Both the position numbers and the translations under genes were made by a program. Below, in pieces: positions 8,071 through 60,752 of a stretch of 64,000 nt of DNA; position 1 is the stretch's first letter; each line of letters opens with the position of its first letter. This stretch comes from Phycisphaerae bacterium (GTDB taxonomy: Bacteria > Planctomycetota > Phycisphaerae > JAJVII01): positions 62,001-126,000 of the forward strand of contig JAJVII010000012.1 in NCBI GenBank assembly GCA_022072085.1. The letters are read 5' to 3'. Under the pieces are notes generated by a model. The model was not told the origin of the DNA. It saw only the letters and a program-made list of their open reading frames with translations, and searched no databases.

Positions 8071-8190
8071 TCAGCCGCGCTGTGAGTTTGCGCGGCGGCG
8101 GGCCAGGGGGGCGGCCAGCGCGCCGAAGAGCAGCAGGGCGAGCGTGGCCGGCTCGGGGACAGGGGCGGGGTCGGTGGTGAACACGTGGAC
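8071..8190 (-). pseudogene. Orphan PEP-CTERM sorting tail (gene remnant)
   Basis: On the minus strand the frame reads PVPEPATLALLLFGALAAP followed by LARRR and a TGA at 8071. This is a complete PEP-CTERM tail: the PEP box, a hydrophobic segment and a basic cluster, which exosortases recognise. No gene body precedes it; going upstream the frame runs straight into the 3' end of the SulP permease gene, which uses another frame. Bases 8092-8160 match 11833-11901 at 66 of 69 positions, so this piece is a copy of the tail of the PEP-CTERM protein 3.7 kb away or shares a recent source with it. Confidence 0.65.
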
Positions 8191-11823: not shown

Positions 11824-12210
11824 CTACTTCCTGCGGCGGCGGGCCAGGGGGGCGGCCAGGGCGCCGAGCAGCAGCAGGGCGAGCGTGGCCGGCTCGGGGA
11901 CCGCGACCGCGGCCAACTGGGCGTCCCAGGTCACCGCGTAGTCCCAGCTCGCGAAGTCGCTGTTGGCGAAGCCCAGCGTGAACTCGTATCGGCCGGCTGA
12001 CAGGCCGGTCAGGTAGATATGCTCGACGTTGTCGACGGTCGAAACGCTCTGGTCGATCAGGCTGCCCTGCACGTAGCCCGAGGCGTTGTAGAACTTCAGG
12101 TTGATGTCGGCCAGCGACGGCGTGAAGGTGGCCGACGCAAACGGCGTCTGTCCGTCCACCTCGGCGATCGCGCGGTTCCAGGTCAGCAGGATCGACAGCG
12201 AGGTGACCTC
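11824..12210 (-). pseudogene. C-terminal part of the PEP-CTERM S8-like protein, after an in-frame stop
   Basis: This stretch is in the same frame as the S8-like gene upstream and is separated from it only by a TAG at 12211-12213. It encodes about 128 residues: a beta-sandwich segment (LSILLTWNRAIAEVDGQTPF, HIYLTGLSAGRYEFTLGF) and a full PEP-CTERM tail (VPEPATLALLLLGALAAP, LARRRRK). A GTG at 12159 could start translation of the last 111 residues but would give no signal peptide. The simplest reading is one gene split by a nonsense mutation: changing TAG to CAG gives an unbroken open frame of 477 codons. Confidence 0.75.
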
Positions 12211-13257
12211 CTAGCCAGCGGCGACCTCGAAGAAGTAGGTCTTGCCCGACGCGGTCAGCGTGTCGTAGTCCCAGCCGGTCGTGCCGACGTCGGCGACGGC
12301 GCTGGCCTCCTGCTCGCCGGAGGTCAGGATGCGGTCGCTGTTGTCGATGTTCAACTCGCCGGCGCCGTAGCGGGAATCCAGCGGCTGGGTCTGGGTGTGC
12401 GACCACGAGACGAACTCGGTCTTGGTCGCCCCGCCCATCAACAGGGCCTTGATGGTCAGTTCCTTGGAGGCGTGAACGTCGCTGCCGGCGGTCTGCATCA
12501 GCAGCCCAGCGGCGGCGCTGACCATCGGCGTGGCGTAGCTGGAAGCCGTGCCGGGGGCGACGATGTCGGGCTTGGATCGGCCGGCCACGTCCAGGCTGGT
12601 CGGCCCGTGGCTGCCGCCGCCGTCTCTTCGGCCGACGACGATGGCGTTGTAGCTCTGGCCCAGCAGCTTGGGCACGGTGGTCGTTGAGCCGTTGTTGACG
12701 GCGACGACGGCCAGCACGTTGTCGCGGACGACCATGTAGTCCAGGCGGCGGGTGATCTCGATGGCGTCGGCGTCGGAAGTCTGGGAGTCTTTGCTGACCC
12801 AGCTCGCGTTGATGATGCGGCTGGTCTCGACCTTGGGGGCGTAGCGGTTGTAAGCGCGGAGGAAGCCCGTGTCCAGCCAGTTGCCGGCGCTGTAGACGTC
12901 GATGGTCGCAATGCCCGATGCGATGCCCGAGTTGCCGTAGTAGTACGTGCCGACCGTGTAGGCGTGGCTGGAGTAGGCGCCGATGCCGGTCTTGTCGGTG
13001 AAGGTCTTTCCCGAGAAGGCCACAGGGATGGTCGAGGGCGGCGTGTAGGGCAGATACTGCGTGCCGTTGACGTCAAGCGACGCCTCGACCTGGGTCACCT
13101 TGACGCCCGAGCCGTTGGGGATGGGCTGGCTGGCCAGCGTCCGGCGGGCGACCATCGACGTGTAGCCGATGTCGTCCATGTAGCCGGCCGAGGCGGTCTG
13201 AGTCCAGGGGAGAACAAGAGCGACGGCGAGGAATCCGATCCGGCGAACAGGACGCAT
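12211..13257 (-). CDS. Secreted S8 (subtilase)-like protein, cut short by TAG
   Basis: 348 aa from ATG at 13257, with GAGGAG eight bases upstream. A signal peptide ends at TQTASAG. The subtilase-like layout is visible: GSGVKVTQVEASLD in place of the Asp motif (Glu in the Asp position), SSHAYTVGTYYYG carrying the His, and GTASSYATPMVSAAAGLLM carrying the Ser. Planctomycete PEP-CTERM proteins of this type commonly show Glu for Asp, so peptidase activity is uncertain. As read, the product lacks the PEP-CTERM anchor and would be released or misfolded. The gene body ends in YFFEVAAG directly before TAG. Confidence 0.8.
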   Translation of the reverse strand: MRPVRRIGFLAVALVLPWTQTASAGYMDDIGYTSMVARRTLASQPIPNGSGVKVTQVEASLDVNGTQYLPYTPPSTIPVAFSGKTFTDKTGIGAYSSHAYTVGTYYYGNSGIASGIATIDVYSAGNWLDTGFLRAYNRYAPKVETSRIINASWVSKDSQTSDADAIEITRRLDYMVVRDNVLAVVAVNNGSTTTVPKLLGQSYNAIVVGRRDGGGSHGPTSLDVAGRSKPDIVAPGTASSYATPMVSAAAGLLMQTAGSDVHASKELTIKALLMGGATKTEFVSWSHTQTQPLDSRYGAGELNIDNSDRILTSGEQEASAVADVGTTGWDYDTLTASGKTYFFEVAAG

Positions 13258-14706: not shown

Positions 14707-17700
14707 CTACCAGGTCATCACGCTTCGGCCGATGATCTGCGGGCGGACGTAGCCGGCGGCGCCCGGCGCGTAGTTGCACTTGGAGCGGTCCAGCAACACC
14801 ATCAGCCGCCGGTGGAACTTGCCCTTGGCCGCTGGATCCCAGAAGTTGCCCGTGTAGCTGCGGTCCAGATCCTCGACCAGCACGTAGACCATGAACACGT
14901 CGCTGCGCGTCGTGCCCACGTCGGTCAGCCGATCCATCATGAAGTTCTGCTCGGTCGGGCTGCCCGGCGATTCCTGGTCGCAATGCCACGCTGTGCTGCT
15001 GCTGTTCACCCACGTACTGCTCTGGGTGTCGTAATACCACGTCGGCACGGGGCGGTTGGTCGCGGTGGACCACCTCGCAACATCCGGCTGCTCAAGTCGA
15101 GCGTTGTACTGGGTGATCGACTGGGCCACATAGGAACTGTTACCGGTGTAGGTCAACTGGTCCAGCAGGGGCTTCATGCTGGTCATCTCGTTCACCAGGC
15201 CCAGTTGCCCGACGCCCTCCTGGAAACCACGATTGGTCGCGTTCTGTCGATAATCATAAATGCGCTGATGCAACTGGTAAGTGAATCCCGAGACGGCCTT
15301 CTTCCTCTGGGCGAGCTTCTGGTATATGTCCATGCCCTCGTCGTTGCCGTCAGGCCCGTTGGCCCCGTGCCAGGTCATCCCCGGGGACATGTAGTAGCTC
15401 ATGCACATCAGCACATGCGGCGGGGCGGTGTTGACGTTGACCAGGCCGGGCAGACGCAGTTCCGTCAGGTCGTCGGCCGTCCCGTCCCCGTTGTCGTCGG
15501 CGCTGTTATACCGCCGGCTCATCCGCGTCAGCCACCCCAGCACGCGATAATCCCCCCGCGTCGCGTTCGCCCAGTTCAGATACAAATCCCCCGTCGCCGC
15601 CCCCGTCGTCGCCGCCGTGATATGGTCCGTCACCGCCTTGCACCCGCTCACGCCCGCCGCCTGCGGGCCCACCGTCATCAGATAGTGCAACTGCCCCACC
15701 GTGTCAAAATCATGCACCACGTTGTCCGGCGGCACCGCAATCGACGCCAGCCGCCCGTCCTGATACGGCGTGTAGAACGTCGTCACTACCTCCGCGTTCT
15801 GGCTCCCGAAACTCTGCGTCGGCGTGTTGTACCACACGTCCCGCGACTGCAGCCACTGCTTGTCGCCCCGGCTGGCGTGCCGCGTCACGTTCCCGATCGA
15901 CGGACGGTCCAGCCACTGGCTGACCCCCATCGCCGCCGAGATCGCGCTGTTGCCCGCTCGGTCCACGATCACCAGCGGGTTGCCCGCTCCCGACGCCTGG
16001 TTGGACAGCATCGGACGCAGCAACTCGATGTCGCGGTTGATGTCCCCGTTGCGGAACAGCAGGTTCCCGTTGGTGATCGCCGTCCCGATGAACACCGACG
16101 GCCAGCCGAATCCCTCCGCCGTCGTCGCGTGGCTGCGGATCGTCAGCCGGCCCCCCGCCGACACCACCGTCCCGCCCGGGATCGTCACCGCCAGCGTGCC
16201 CAGACGAATCTGCCAATACCCCACGTTCACGTCCACGTTATACGGGTTGAACAGCTCCAACGCATACCGGCTGTTGCTCCACGTGCTCAACGCGTAGTGC
16301 TTGATCGCCACCTCCGTGATGAACACCTGCGGCTCGTTCCCGTATATCCCGCTGGTGTTATACACCGTGTCCACCTTGTTGCTCCCCCCGCCCGCTCCCG
16401 TCGTCGAGAGGTCCTGGTCGGCGTCCCGCCAGTCCGCCAGGTTCACCACCGCCTGCTCCACCTGCTGGCTGCTCAGGCCCCCCGTCGGCGCCATCGCCCC
16501 GGACAACGCAAACGCCGCCACCAACGCCTTGGTATACAGCGCATTGTGCGGGCTGGCGTTGTTCACATACAGACACCCCGGATCATCCGCTGTCTTCAGC
16601 CCCGCCTTGTAGATCGCCATCCACGCGTCCCAGCTCGCCGCTCCCGACGGCGCCCCCCCCGTCGGCATCACGTTCGGATGCACATTACGCACCCAACTGT
16701 AGCTGGTGAAATACATCTGGAGCGAGTTGTTGATGTGCGCCGCGTCAAAAGGATTGGTCAGCGGCACCGTCTCGCTGATGTCGGGGATCAGGTAACGCCG
16801 GTCGGCGCTGCGGGTGTAGGAGTAGCTTCCGACGGTGGCTGCGCGATCGGTGAAGGTCATCGGCCAGTCGAGTTCAAGGCGGGCGGCGGCCGGTCCGGGC
16901 TTGACCCCGTAGCTCTGGAGCGCGAACGTCTCCCAGGGACGGAACGGCAGGGCGTTGGGGAACGTGTCGGTGATCCGGGCGTTGTCCAACTGCATGCTGT
17001 AGTCCAGGTCCGGATGCTTCACCAGTTCCGCGGAACCGATATCCGACTGGGACGAGAGCGATCGGCCGAAGTAAGCGCCGTAACTCTGGTTGGACGCCAT
17101 CCATTTGAACGCCCCGTTGCCATACTGGCTCCAGACGGCCTCGATGCTGGCCGCTGGGGCGTCCACGCTGTAGGGCGTGTTTCCCAGGTCGAAGGGCGTC
17201 CCGCGGCCGGCTGTGTTCAGGTTGATCATCGCGCTCTCGTCGATCACCCGCACCGCCCAGCGATACTGGCCGTTGGGGCTGAGCAACCATCGCGAGTCGT
17301 TCACGCCGTCCCCGTCGGCGTCGGCCTCCAGGGCGCTGGCCAGCACGCTCGTGTCCGTTGCCGCCACCCCGCGGTTGAAGTTGGGGCCCGCCAGATTGGT
17401 GATGTGCGGCCAGAGGTAAACCCCGCCGGCCTGCTTTTCCGGCAGCGTGCTGGCCAGCCAGGCGTCGTCCCACAGGCCGAACTTCGCGGGGTCGCTGTTG
17501 GTGCAGGGGAAGTCGAACGGCTCGTCGGGCACGTCGTGGCTGGACGTGCCGTTCCCGAGCATGTTGGCGTCGTCGCCCCAGAGGTCGCGGGTCAACTGCC
17601 CGATCACCACTTCGCAGACCGCGTTGGCTTCCACGTCCAGGCGGGCGTCCTCCAGCCCGATCGCGCCGGCGGCACGGTCCATCTGGCTCATGCCCAGAAA

Positions 17701-17796
17701 GCCCATGCCCACGACGAACAGCACGACCACCAGCGCGACCACCAGGATCAGCGCCGAACCGGTCCGACGCCGCGGCAAGCGTGTTGAGATGAGCAT
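14707..17796 (-). CDS. GspK-like pseudopilin, copy A
   Basis: 1029 aa from ATG at 17796 (AAAGGCGACAAT upstream). The N-terminus has a basic leader and a prepilin-like hydrophobic segment (TG, then SALILVVALVVVLFVVGMG) with a Gly cleavage site but no Phe/Thr. GspK hallmarks are present: VRVIDESAMINLNTAGRG near residue 190 and LPGLVNVNTAPPHVL near residue 790. It is much longer than E. coli GspK (about 330 aa). Residues about 376-794 are encoded by a 1,257-bp tract identical to that in the divergent paralog at 18122-21118. The ends differ: the C-terminal 230 residues are unique. Predicted role: minor pseudopilin at the tip of a type II secretion-like pseudopilus. Confidence 0.8.
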   Translation of the reverse strand: MLISTRLPRRRTGSALILVVALVVVLFVVGMGFLGMSQMDRAAGAIGLEDARLDVEANAVCEVVIGQLTRDLWGDDANMLGNGTSSHDVPDEPFDFPCTNSDPAKFGLWDDAWLASTLPEKQAGGVYLWPHITNLAGPNFNRGVAATDTSVLASALEADADGDGVNDSRWLLSPNGQYRWAVRVIDESAMINLNTAGRGTPFDLGNTPYSVDAPAASIEAVWSQYGNGAFKWMASNQSYGAYFGRSLSSQSDIGSAELVKHPDLDYSMQLDNARITDTFPNALPFRPWETFALQSYGVKPGPAAARLELDWPMTFTDRAATVGSYSYTRSADRRYLIPDISETVPLTNPFDAAHINNSLQMYFTSYSWVRNVHPNVMPTGGAPSGAASWDAWMAIYKAGLKTADDPGCLYVNNASPHNALYTKALVAAFALSGAMAPTGGLSSQQVEQAVVNLADWRDADQDLSTTGAGGGSNKVDTVYNTSGIYGNEPQVFITEVAIKHYALSTWSNSRYALELFNPYNVDVNVGYWQIRLGTLAVTIPGGTVVSAGGRLTIRSHATTAEGFGWPSVFIGTAITNGNLLFRNGDINRDIELLRPMLSNQASGAGNPLVIVDRAGNSAISAAMGVSQWLDRPSIGNVTRHASRGDKQWLQSRDVWYNTPTQSFGSQNAEVVTTFYTPYQDGRLASIAVPPDNVVHDFDTVGQLHYLMTVGPQAAGVSGCKAVTDHITAATTGAATGDLYLNWANATRGDYRVLGWLTRMSRRYNSADDNGDGTADDLTELRLPGLVNVNTAPPHVLMCMSYYMSPGMTWHGANGPDGNDEGMDIYQKLAQRKKAVSGFTYQLHQRIYDYRQNATNRGFQEGVGQLGLVNEMTSMKPLLDQLTYTGNSSYVAQSITQYNARLEQPDVARWSTATNRPVPTWYYDTQSSTWVNSSSTAWHCDQESPGSPTEQNFMMDRLTDVGTTRSDVFMVYVLVEDLDRSYTGNFWDPAAKGKFHRRLMVLLDRSKCNYAPGAAGYVRPQIIGRSVMTW
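15416..16672 (-). repeat. Perfect 1,257-bp inverted repeat, left copy
   Basis: This tract, inside pseudopilin gene A, reads the same on the minus strand as 19219-20475 does on the plus strand. I found no mismatch within it; the first differences are at 15415 and 16673. The flanking parts of the two genes have clearly diverged. Confidence 0.9.
17438..17586 (-). repeat. 149-bp near-identical tract, left copy
   Basis: Part of pseudopilin gene A that matches 18329-18477 (opposite strand) at 146 of 149 positions. It encodes the DLWGDDANMLGNGTSSHDV region. The surrounding N-terminal sequence is far less alike, so this looks like a second, older exchange tract. Confidence 0.8.
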
Positions 17797-17896
17797 ATTG
17801 TCGCCTTTCGCCGGCGGCCCCGGGACTTGTCCAGATGCCGCTCAACTGATGTTACGCGGTTGGCCGCCGGCCGACAATGGGGCAGATGGGGGCCTG

Positions 17897-17925
17897 TTGC
17901 CATACACAGGACAGGGGACGATAAT
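17897..17925 (+). promoter_or_regulatory. Candidate sigma70-type promoter for pseudopilin gene B
   Basis: TTGCCA at 17897-17902, a 17-bp spacer and GATAAT at 17920-17925 lie in the 325-bp gap between the divergent pseudopilin genes. The gene starts at 18122, so the leader would be about 190 bases. The rest of this gap shows no gene. Confidence 0.45.
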
Positions 17926-18121
17926 AGTCCAGTGGGCTCGATGTGCCGGTAAGCCCTCTCCGCCCGGGGCGTTGGGCGGATGGGCCGCTGCAATCGTCAC
18001 AACTGCGAGAGTTGAGCATCTCTGCGACAGGCGGCCTGGCGGGTCTCGGACATCGGCTCTGACATATTGTGGCTGGAATGCAGTCAGCCGTCTTGCCGGC
18101 GGCGGCACGGGGAGATTCTCA

Positions 18122-21118
18122 ATGCCTCATACGTTGCAGCTTTCACGGCGTCGCGGCACGGCCTTCATCCTTGTGATCGTCCTGCTGGTCGTGCTGTTCG
18201 TCATCGCCATGGGGTTCATGGGCATCACGCGCATCGACCGGATGGCCAGCCAACTGGACCTTCGGGACTCGCAGATGCACGCCGAGGCCAACGCCGCGAT
18301 CGAGCAGGTCGTCGGGCTGCTCAGCCAGGACCTCTGGGGCGACGACGCCAACATGCTCGGGAACGGCACGTCCAGCCACGACGTGGCCGACGAACCGTTC
18401 GACGTCCCCTGCACCAACAGCGACCCCGCGAAGTTCGGCCTGTGGGACGACGCCTGGCTGGCCAGCACGCTGCCGGAGACCGTGGGCGCCGACTATCGCT
18501 GGCCGCACGTTACCAATCTGGCGGGCACGAATTTCGGCCGCAGCGTGGCGGCCTCCGACACCAACGTGCTGGCCTCGACGCTCGAAGCCGACGCCGACCG
18601 CGACGGCATCAACGATTCGCGCTGGTATCTCAGCCCGTCGGGCCGCTTTCGCATAGCCGTCCGGGTCGTCGACGAGTGCTCGATGATGAACCTGAACACC
18701 GGCGGCCGCGGCTTTGCCGACGACCGGGGCTCGACGCCGTCTCACATCGCCATGGTCCGATGGAACGCCGAAACCCAGTGGAACAACGGCAGCGCCCCGG
18801 ACGACGCCTACCTGGTCTCCGCGCAGCACTGGTCGGGCAGCAATCCCGAGAGCATGAACAACGCCTACTTCTTCGGGCGGCGTTCCGTCGGGTCCAACGC
18901 CGACGGCCGAACCGCCACCGACGCAGCCTGCGACTATTCGATGAAACTGGACAACCCCCGGCTGCTCGACGTCGTCCCCGACGCCCTGCCCTTCCGCCCG
19001 TGGGAGACGCTGGCCATGCAGAGCTACGGCATCAAGGCCGGGCCCTGCGCCGCCCGCATCGACGCCGGCTGGTTCTGGAGCATGAAGACCACCCGCGGCA
19101 CCATGCCCGACATCCGCACCAACATGACCGATCCGACCTGGGGAACCGGGGTTAACGGCAACTGGTCCTACCGGATGTATTACACGACCTACAATTGGGT
19201 GCGTAACGTGCATCCGAGCGTGATGCCGACGGGGGGGGCGCCGTCGGGGGCGGCGAGTTGGGACGCGTGGATGGCGATCTACAAGGCGGGGCTGAAGACT
19301 GCGGACGATCCGGGGTGTCTGTATGTGAACAACGCCAGCCCGCACAATGCGCTGTATACCAAGGCGTTGGTGGCGGCGTTTGCGTTGTCCGGGGCGATGG
19401 CGCCGACGGGGGGCCTGAGCAGCCAGCAGGTGGAGCAGGCGGTGGTGAACCTGGCGGACTGGCGGGACGCCGACCAGGACCTCTCGACGACGGGAGCGGG
19501 CGGGGGGAGCAACAAGGTGGACACGGTGTATAACACCAGCGGGATATACGGGAACGAGCCGCAGGTGTTCATCACGGAGGTGGCGATCAAGCACTACGCG
19601 TTGAGCACGTGGAGCAACAGCCGGTATGCGTTGGAGCTGTTCAACCCGTATAACGTGGACGTGAACGTGGGGTATTGGCAGATTCGTCTGGGCACGCTGG
19701 CGGTGACGATCCCGGGCGGGACGGTGGTGTCGGCGGGGGGCCGGCTGACGATCCGCAGCCACGCGACGACGGCGGAGGGATTCGGCTGGCCGTCGGTGTT
19801 CATCGGGACGGCGATCACCAACGGGAACCTGCTGTTCCGCAACGGGGACATCAACCGCGACATCGAGTTGCTGCGTCCGATGCTGTCCAACCAGGCGTCG
19901 GGAGCGGGCAACCCGCTGGTGATCGTGGACCGAGCGGGCAACAGCGCGATCTCGGCGGCGATGGGGGTCAGCCAGTGGCTGGACCGTCCGTCGATCGGGA
20001 ACGTGACGCGGCACGCCAGCCGGGGCGACAAGCAGTGGCTGCAGTCGCGGGACGTGTGGTACAACACGCCGACGCAGAGTTTCGGGAGCCAGAACGCGGA
20101 GGTAGTGACGACGTTCTACACGCCGTATCAGGACGGGCGGCTGGCGTCGATTGCGGTGCCGCCGGACAACGTGGTGCATGATTTTGACACGGTGGGGCAG
20201 TTGCACTATCTGATGACGGTGGGCCCGCAGGCGGCGGGCGTGAGCGGGTGCAAGGCGGTGACGGACCATATCACGGCGGCGACGACGGGGGCGGCGACGG
20301 GGGATTTGTATCTGAACTGGGCGAACGCGACGCGGGGGGATTATCGCGTGCTGGGGTGGCTGACGCGGATGAGCCGGCGGTATAACAGCGCCGACGACAA
20401 CGGGGACGGGACGGCCGACGACCTGACGGAACTGCGTCTGCCCGGCCTGGTCAACGTCAACACCGCCCCGCCGCACGTGATTGCGCAGCTGAATTGGCAA
20501 CTCAGTCCCCGCGAGAGCTGGAACTCACAGACCAACGGGTACGTGTATTCCTATGAATGGCAACGCCATGAACAAGGCAAGCCGGCGGCGTCTGCCTTCA
20601 TCTATAACCAGAAGATCTACGACCAAGCGAGGGCCAGTGGATTCACCGAAGGTGTTGGCGAGTTGGGCCGTGTCAGCGAGCTGATGGACCCCTCGGCTGT
20701 CCTGAACGCCTCACAATTTGCCCGCAGGCCCAACGGTTCACCCGGGGCATGTCCCTTCAGCGCCCGCAACATTCAGCGGGAGATGGAGTTCTATTACGAC
20801 GAATACTACATGAATTTCCTGCCCCCGACAGATTACTACTTCTATGCCCAGGTCGCGCCGGGCAATCCGAACGAGCGGCACTTCCTCCTCGACCGCATCA
20901 CCGACGTCGCCACCACGCGGTCGGACACGTTCCTGGTCTACGTGCTGATCCAGGACCTGAACGTCGGCTACAGCGGAAACTACTGGGACGCGGCAGCCGG
21001 CGGCCCGCACACGCAGAGACTGGTGGCGCTGATCGACCGCTCCCGGTGCAACTACCCGCCGGGCAATGCCAGCCACCAGCAGCCGACGATCGTGCTGCGC
21101 AGCCAGCCCACCTGGTAA
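18122..21118 (+). CDS. GspK-like pseudopilin, copy B
   Basis: 998 aa from ATG at 18122, preceded by GGGGAG. The N-terminus (RRRG, then TAFILVIVLLVVLFVIAMG) is a prepilin-like hydrophobic segment. GspK hallmarks VRVVDECSMMNLNTGGRG and LPGLVNVNTAPPHV are present. It is a divergent head-to-head neighbour of copy A. Residues about 367-785 are encoded by the 1,257-bp tract shared exactly with copy A, while the last 213 residues (from IAQLNWQLSPRESW) and most of the N-terminal third are its own. Codons in the shared tract end mostly in G, whereas flanks prefer C. Predicted role as for copy A; together they may be alternative tip subunits. Confidence 0.8.
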   Translation: MPHTLQLSRRRGTAFILVIVLLVVLFVIAMGFMGITRIDRMASQLDLRDSQMHAEANAAIEQVVGLLSQDLWGDDANMLGNGTSSHDVADEPFDVPCTNSDPAKFGLWDDAWLASTLPETVGADYRWPHVTNLAGTNFGRSVAASDTNVLASTLEADADRDGINDSRWYLSPSGRFRIAVRVVDECSMMNLNTGGRGFADDRGSTPSHIAMVRWNAETQWNNGSAPDDAYLVSAQHWSGSNPESMNNAYFFGRRSVGSNADGRTATDAACDYSMKLDNPRLLDVVPDALPFRPWETLAMQSYGIKAGPCAARIDAGWFWSMKTTRGTMPDIRTNMTDPTWGTGVNGNWSYRMYYTTYNWVRNVHPSVMPTGGAPSGAASWDAWMAIYKAGLKTADDPGCLYVNNASPHNALYTKALVAAFALSGAMAPTGGLSSQQVEQAVVNLADWRDADQDLSTTGAGGGSNKVDTVYNTSGIYGNEPQVFITEVAIKHYALSTWSNSRYALELFNPYNVDVNVGYWQIRLGTLAVTIPGGTVVSAGGRLTIRSHATTAEGFGWPSVFIGTAITNGNLLFRNGDINRDIELLRPMLSNQASGAGNPLVIVDRAGNSAISAAMGVSQWLDRPSIGNVTRHASRGDKQWLQSRDVWYNTPTQSFGSQNAEVVTTFYTPYQDGRLASIAVPPDNVVHDFDTVGQLHYLMTVGPQAAGVSGCKAVTDHITAATTGAATGDLYLNWANATRGDYRVLGWLTRMSRRYNSADDNGDGTADDLTELRLPGLVNVNTAPPHVIAQLNWQLSPRESWNSQTNGYVYSYEWQRHEQGKPAASAFIYNQKIYDQARASGFTEGVGELGRVSELMDPSAVLNASQFARRPNGSPGACPFSARNIQREMEFYYDEYYMNFLPPTDYYFYAQVAPGNPNERHFLLDRITDVATTRSDTFLVYVLIQDLNVGYSGNYWDAAAGGPHTQRLVALIDRSRCNYPPGNASHQQPTIVLRSQPTW
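18329..18477 (+). repeat. 149-bp near-identical tract, right copy
   Basis: Matches the minus strand of 17438-17586 with three substitutions only. It lies within the N-terminal part of pseudopilin gene B. Confidence 0.8.
19219..20475 (+). repeat. Perfect 1,257-bp inverted repeat, right copy
   Basis: Identical to the reverse complement of 15416-16672. The two copies are separated by 2,546 bp that contain the 5' parts of both pseudopilin genes and their promoter region. The first differences outside are at 19218 and 20476. Confidence 0.9.
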
Positions 21119-22688: not shown

Positions 22689-22735
22689 GGATTATGGGCA
22701 GAAGCAGGAAGGCCCCCCAACCCGGCAGGTGGCGT

Positions 22736-23569
22736 ATGCGGAAGCGTTCAGGACATGCGGGTTTCACGCTGATCGAGTTGTTGATCATCATCGGCATCCT
22801 TGCACTGCTCCTGGCGATCCTCATGCCCTCTCTGTCGGCTGCCCGCGAAGCGGCACGGCGGGTCAAGTGCGCCCATAACCTGCACAACATCGGTTTGGCA
22901 TTGGCCAGCTATGCCAACGACAACGGCACTCAGTATCCGCGCACGAACAAGAGCCCCAACAAGTGGCGGAACGTCGGCTACCAGGCGACATTCAACGACG
23001 CTACGAACGCCACAAAGAACGCGGGCAACCTGCGGGCGCTTTACTTGCTGATCCGCGGCCGCTACGCAACCCCGGATCTGTTCATCTGCCCGTCCGCATC
23101 CACCGACGAGGCCCTCGCGGTGAATTCCATCGACACGTATTATGAGTTCCCCCGCCGGGTGAACTGCTCCTACTCCTACTACAACACCTGGGGCTGGTCC
23201 CCCAAGTCGACGGACAATTCGGCGCTCGCCGTCCTGGCCGACCGCAATCCGCTCATCAAGTTCTACTGGTATCCCACCTGGTCGTGCGACCGGGGCGACG
23301 CGAACGATGCGGTCAGCATGGATGCCCGTGTCGACCGAAACGTCCCGGAATCCGCCAACTCACCTAATCACGGCGGTCGCGGGCAGAATGTTCTGTTCAT
23401 CGGCGGCCAGGTCGAGTTCCACGGCACCCCGAGGATCGGTCTGACCATCAATGGCGTCCAGGACAACATCTACACCGAGGCCGACGGCTCGGCCTGGGGG
23501 AAGGTCATGAATGAAACCGTCCTGGGCGAGGAGCCCTACAGTTCGGACGACGCCTGGCTGGTCCCCTGA
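22736..23569 (+). CDS. Type IV prepilin-like protein of the planctomycete H-X9-DG type
   Basis: 277 aa. Start ATG 22736 is preferred over 22694 because it has AGGTGG upstream and gives the usual short leader: MRKRSGHAG, then [20 protein letters not shown], the methylation and cleavage signature. The mature part holds YDNDN-like [11 protein letters not shown] and, near residue 215, [20 protein letters not shown], which corresponds to the H-X9-DG motif with GG in place of DG. Such proteins are very common in Planctomycetota and are thought to be cell-surface pseudopilin-like subunits. It points away from the divergent secreted protein gene. Confidence 0.85.
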
Positions 23570-60419: not shown

Positions 60420-60478
60420 CCGCACCGCCCGCTCCCTGACGGTCGCGGCCCACCGTGTACTGAATCCTGTAGAAGCAA

Positions 60479-60600
60479 TCTTCACCACAGAGAACACAGA
60501 GAGCACAGAGTCGGGAGTATCAAAAAATTCTTGATTTCAGGCATTTCTTGACGCTTCTGACCTCCTCTGTGATCTCGGTGTCCTCTGTGGTGAATGAAGA
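60479..60600. repeat. Imperfect inverted repeat of the CACCACAGAGAACACAGAG type
   Basis: TCTTCACCACAGAGAACACA near 60479 is mirrored by the stretch up to 60600 reading TGTCCTCTGTGGTGAATGAA, with an AT-rich centre (CAAAAAATTCTTGATTTC). Similar repeats occur between genes in many bacterial genomes and MAGs. It fills most of the 333-bp gap between sat and cysC, where no gene is seen. Confidence 0.6.
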
Positions 60601-60752
60601 TTTCTTTTGCAGGCCTCAATAGCCGCGAGCGTAAGCGAGCGCGTAGACAAGCGTGCGGCCGATCGCAAGATCGTAGCCGCCGAACTCAACCTGCGTAACC
60701 GTTCGATCGAAAAGAACTGACCGCAACACCACCGCACGCAAGGAGACTTCCT

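Follow-up and report, generated by a model that had tools for sequence, protein, structure and literature searches.

A head-to-head pair of GspK-like genes in a planctomycete with middles probably homogenised by ectopic gene conversion

Among the closest described counterparts of the locus reported here is tufA/tufB of Salmonella enterica, inversely oriented paralogues in which about 1.2 kb of near-identity is maintained by homologous recombination and inversions are a minority product (PMC5485169, PMC8262849). The two genes, of 1,185 nt, undergo one conversion per 10^5-10^6 generations, and the conversion walk averages about 500 nt in each direction (PMC5485169). For identical cassettes in Salmonella, the rate of RecA-dependent recombination is about 2.6e-6 per cell and generation. 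When the cassettes were inverted, inversion accounted for 5/59 selected recombinants (8%), and for as much as a quarter in previous tuf studies (PMC8262849). The tuf genes are near-identical from end to end and lie 762 kb apart, whereas in the pair described here (genes A and B) only the middle appears homogenised, the ends have diverged and the copies are adjacent.

Pilin-gene mosaics formed by conversion, in a RecA-dependent manner, are also known from Neisseria pilE/pilS (PMC4534519). There, one expressed gene is accompanied by many silent copies, whereas A and B are both complete, with their own starts, and conversion between them would lower diversity. As at spnIII/hsdS of Streptococcus pneumoniae, inverted repeats lie within paralogous coding genes; spnIII inversion is partly independent of known recombinases (PMC6620402) and has been observed, whereas at A/B an inversion is only conceivable. 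More generally, prokaryotic duplicates can undergo concerted evolution, leaving paralogues within a genome more alike than orthologues (PMC6053082). Unlike that general pattern, the A/B case is partial and concerns one lineage, and its long persistence is only a possibility.

The window analysed here, a stretch of 64,000 nucleotides from a Phycisphaerae bacterium, carries A and B in a divergent, head-to-head arrangement. They are the only members of their family in the genome.

14707-17796, minus strand: gene A, an ORF for a large GspK-like (pseudopilin-type) protein of 1029 aa, with a prepilin-like hydrophobic N-terminus, a VNVNTAP motif and weak, sub-cutoff NCBIfam matches to Verru_Chthon_A and T2SS_GspK
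17797-18121, no strand: divergent intergenic region of 325 bp between the A and B start codons, with one promoter-like plus-strand match at 17897-17925 (a consensus match only)
18122-21118, plus strand: gene B, an ORF for a paralogue of A of 998 aa, start set at MPHTLQLSRRR, with a weak T2SS_GspK match over residues 11-76

The term GspK-like is best taken as a descriptive label that assigns no family; the T2SS_GspK scores of A and B (13.8 and 22.6 bits) lie far below the NCBIfam cut-off of 130. Both proteins carry the VNVNTAP motif and, after a glycine, a hydrophobic prepilin-like N-terminus that can be read directly (RRTGSALILVVALVVVLFV and RRRGTAFILVIVLLVVLFV). A PDB profile search returned one weak match, of the VNVNTA region to EEPD1. 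The models that AlphaFold2 built from two alignments were poor (mean pLDDT 25.2 and 36.2), and we base no domain claim on them; the second hints weakly at a helix at the N-terminus and a beta hairpin at the C-terminus, outside the tract shared by the two genes. The surroundings include an exosortase gene, polysaccharide genes and one DUF1559-type pseudopilin gene (22694-23569). In several relatives, the single homologue is preceded, at a distance of a few kb, by DUF1559-type pseudopilin genes of the same strand.

The preliminary description of this locus reported a perfect 1,257-bp inverted repeat within the two genes. An inverted repeat is indeed present, but its exact part covers 1,169 bp; over the longer interval (15416-16672 and 19219-20475) 1,253 of 1,257 positions are identical, with mismatches at 16585, 16591, 16633 and 16642. 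Allowing 12 mismatches extends the arm to 1,309 bp (15412-16720 and 19171-20479).

15416-16584, minus strand: gene A copy of the exact, putatively converted tract; longest exact match between A and B, 1,169 bp, inverted; 0/375 degenerate codons differ
19307-20475, plus strand: gene B copy of the same tract
16585-16720, minus strand: upstream edge of the A copy, graded (partner 19171-19306), holding nearly all 12 mismatches of the 1,309-bp arm; dS about 0.25 over codons 356-404
16585-19306, no strand: segment that a crossover could invert, 2,722 bp between the exact arms; the assembly does not prove its orientation
17438-17586, minus strand: putative short conversion patch, the second in A, with 3 mismatches over 149 nt; synonymous differences at 2/44 codons, against 29/82 in its flanks
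18329-18477, plus strand: partner of this patch in B, 149 nt with 3 mismatches

Within the exact tract the reading frame is identical in the two genes, and the pair is the sole repeat of the main tract in the genome. When the aligned columns were shuffled 2,000 times, the longest exact run was 62, which places the 1,169-bp match beyond chance. The downstream edge is sharp and falls within a VNVNTAPPHV motif; the upstream edge is graded. Two further points of the preliminary description agree with our measurements: the genes diverge at both ends (42-48% amino acid identity there), and the arms enclose about 2.5 kb with both gene starts. The enclosed segment measures 2,722 bp between the exact arms and 2,450 bp between the extended ones, and it contains both start codons and the 325-bp intergenic region.

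Divergence along the pair is strongly uneven. Outside the tract, A and B share 42-68% amino acid identity at a dS of about 0.65-1.0. By codon segments of the alignment (NG86), dS is 0.95 for codons 1-70, 0.065 in the short patch (71-120), 0.65 for codons 121-200, 0.99 for 201-355, 0.25 for 356-404, 0 in the core (405-793) and 1.02 at the C-terminus. Identical and diverged stretches thus alternate as a mosaic, synonymous sites included, and the near-identical tract has diverged homologous sequence on both sides in both copies. Synonymous differences occur at none of 375 codons in the core, against 87 of 220 in those diverged parts that were counted (Fisher p about 5e-44).

The only other genome of the same family/order that was compared (G001) carries one homologue, located on a contig of 5.6 kb. 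In the core, A and B are 100% identical to each other and 44% identical to this homologue, so that the paralogues are closer to one another there than to the orthologue. In the flanks, the A-B identity (42-68%) resembles that between A and G001 (35-60%). Since the flanks of A and B are about as diverged from each other as from G001, the duplication is probably old and the middle was homogenised later. The core also appears homogenised rather than constrained, because it is only 44% identical to G001 while its synonymous sites are identical between A and B. Conserved motifs and a weak lamin-tail-like stretch, under the Pfam cut-off, do lie in the core, and one can ask whether strong selection alone, with no recombination, has kept it identical. 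The lack of any difference at 375 degenerate codons, the low identity in G001 and the absence of Rfam matches within 13-64 kb of the window, the tract included, make this scarcely credible; we rejected it as contradicted by the synonymous sites.

It seems very likely, therefore, that A and B are old head-to-head duplicates of a large GspK-like gene and that ectopic gene conversion homogenised their middle. An identical middle with diverged ends would also follow if the whole gene had duplicated recently and its ends had since been exchanged for diverged sequence of other origin. That sequence of events requires donors that are absent from the genome, and it does not easily explain why another near-identical patch is embedded in the diverged 5' part. 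We consider it very improbable and rejected it on these two grounds.

The patch, which the preliminary description did not mention, lies upstream of the main tract. Its exact runs are 73 and 57 nt, in a setting where nucleotide identity outside the main tract is 63%, and no comparable window arose in 5,000 shuffles. The contrast in synonymous differences between patch and flanks is significant (Fisher p = 6e-5). These data are best explained by two or more conversion events. In our reading, the inverted copies of an old pseudopilin duplicate pair recombine homologously, and either gene may repeatedly have received stretches copied from its partner. Some 1.17-1.3 kb of the middle would have been homogenised recently, in one event or a few, and an older, smaller event would have left the 149-nt patch nearer the 5' end. 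The process would be RecA-type recombination with non-reciprocal copying. It would not act as a functional switch, and the inner segment would be inverted just occasionally, as a side product of that recombination.

Donor and recipient are indistinguishable, the core being identical and a close relative for comparison being absent. GC3 of core and flanks does not point to a donor; a protein search of the genome and viral contigs found no close relatives, and a profile scan yielded nine distant Planctomycetota loci, which served for alignment only. Conversion itself is an ordinary process, well documented in bacteria; the gene pair is new. If conversion is the correct reading, A and B offer a clean natural case of partial concerted evolution in bacteria, in which the middles are kept alike and the ends drift.

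Features of the assembly, judged on a 1.38-Mb sample (a quarter of the genome), bear on how literally the repeat should be taken. Some 35 contig tips in this sample share exact repeats with other tips, mostly of 125-127 bp; three of four DDE transposase matches fall within about 400 bp of contig tips, and, the A/B locus apart, exact repeats inside contigs are at most 173 bp. SPAdes has a maximum k of 127, and its contigs overlap at their ends (PMC5481147). The tip overlaps thus probably stem from a de Bruijn assembly of the SPAdes type with k=127, and the library may have included long reads or mate pairs. Short-read fragments in metagenomes are below 1 kb, and metaSPAdes collapses bulges, masks small differences and passes repeats via strain (pre-masking) contigs (PMC8021871). 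With short fragments, and with no other internal exact repeat above 173 bp in the sample, it is unexpected that a 1,169-bp exact inverted repeat was passed twice within one contig.

It is quite possible, if short of probable, that the two cores are very similar and non-identical, graph simplification having masked isolated differences and perhaps having set the inner orientation arbitrarily. The size of the tip repeats, the position of the transposase matches, the shortness of every other sampled internal repeat and the described behaviour of metaSPAdes all fit such an effect, which is compatible with conversion. An assembler does not, however, create similarity from nothing: a k=127 graph would merge only copies that share about 127 nt exactly at both tract ends, and the patch and the graded edge, with exact runs below 127 nt, should be untouched. 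Long reads or mate pairs, if they were used, would also speak against it. Conversion stands despite these limits: the exact runs of the patch and the graded edge are that short, and copies would be merged only if they truly shared about 127 nt exactly at the tract ends. Perfect identity and the inner orientation, by contrast, are not proven by an assembly of this type, and the same caution holds for long perfect inverted repeats in short-read-type assemblies generally. The gene-conversion half of the preliminary description is accordingly well supported, by the synonymous counts in core, patch and diverged parts and by the low core identity to G001. Its view that recent exchange is certain if the assembly is right has to be tempered, since the k=127 signature leaves full identity and inner orientation insecure; exchange as such rests on evidence independent of that signature.

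The other half proposed a phase-variation-like switch, for which we found no positive evidence. In Moraxella, inversion at tfpQ/tfpI reportedly swaps parts of pilin genes through a dedicated invertase, Piv, whereas no invertase was found among the scanned window proteins near A and B. A switch would require crossovers between the arms to flip the inner segment often enough to be useful; C-terminal parts would then change places between the two promoters, giving alternative chimeric pseudopilins. The arms are long, inverted and just 2.5-2.7 kb apart, and they flank the segment as the repeats of an inverton would. Both genes read the tract in one and the same frame, and the flip performed in silico leaves the two products intact, at 1007 and 1020 aa. 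At spnIII, RecA-independent inversion that known recombinases do not explain occurs at repeats of 333 bp and shorter (PMC6620402).

Several observations nevertheless make such a switch unlikely. No second orientation was seen in the one assembly. The window proteins scanned by Pfam include no recombinase domain. The suggested comparison of the same locus in related genomes, for which the surrounding 10-20 kb was read in 20 class relatives, yielded no comparable pair, each relative having one copy near the match. Chimeras would form as predicted, but only the C-terminal ends (about 214 and 236 residues) would be re-paired; both genes stay open after the flip, and therefore no on/off effect would follow. 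At recombination and inversion rates like those of Salmonella, inversion is possible as a rare by-product. Given the frequent inversion of spnIII without known recombinases or RecA, a switch retains a low probability. One can envision a recombinase-free invertible locus in which RecA-type crossovers regularly flip the 2.5-2.7 kb and swap C-terminal parts, supplying a planctomycete population with alternative surface or tip pseudopilins while conversion keeps the arms identical; we consider this quite unlikely. If inversion did occur, the locus would be a shuffling device for surface proteins, and we found no such device in planctomycetes in the literature searched.

Other features of the window and genome were also seen. 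A near-palindromic repeat of about 165 bp at 60458-60621 (ACCACAGAG...CTCTGTGGT) has some 30 genome copies of at least 100 bp and no Rfam match; it looks like a small non-coding mobile element. The end of contig C8 of G000 (154869-155338; L051) overlaps the start of contig C2 (1-470; L045) by 470 bp at 98.9% identity, with 5 mismatches, possibly another near-identical repeat or a join. On the minus strand, a subtilase-like ORF (12211-13257) is closely followed by a distinct short ORF whose tail is of PEP-CTERM type (11824-12159); a frame change or sequence error may have split a single gene into these two. Coding sequence for a PEP-CTERM-type tail also forms a 69-bp direct repeat (95.7%; 8092-8160 and 11833-11901), the first site of which adjoins a sulfate-permease gene. 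Finally, the genes at 23594-63876, for an exosortase, glycosyltransferases, a polysaccharide flippase, a sulfotransferase, ATP sulfurylase, APS kinase and a secretin, look like a sulfated exopolysaccharide and PEP-CTERM cluster.
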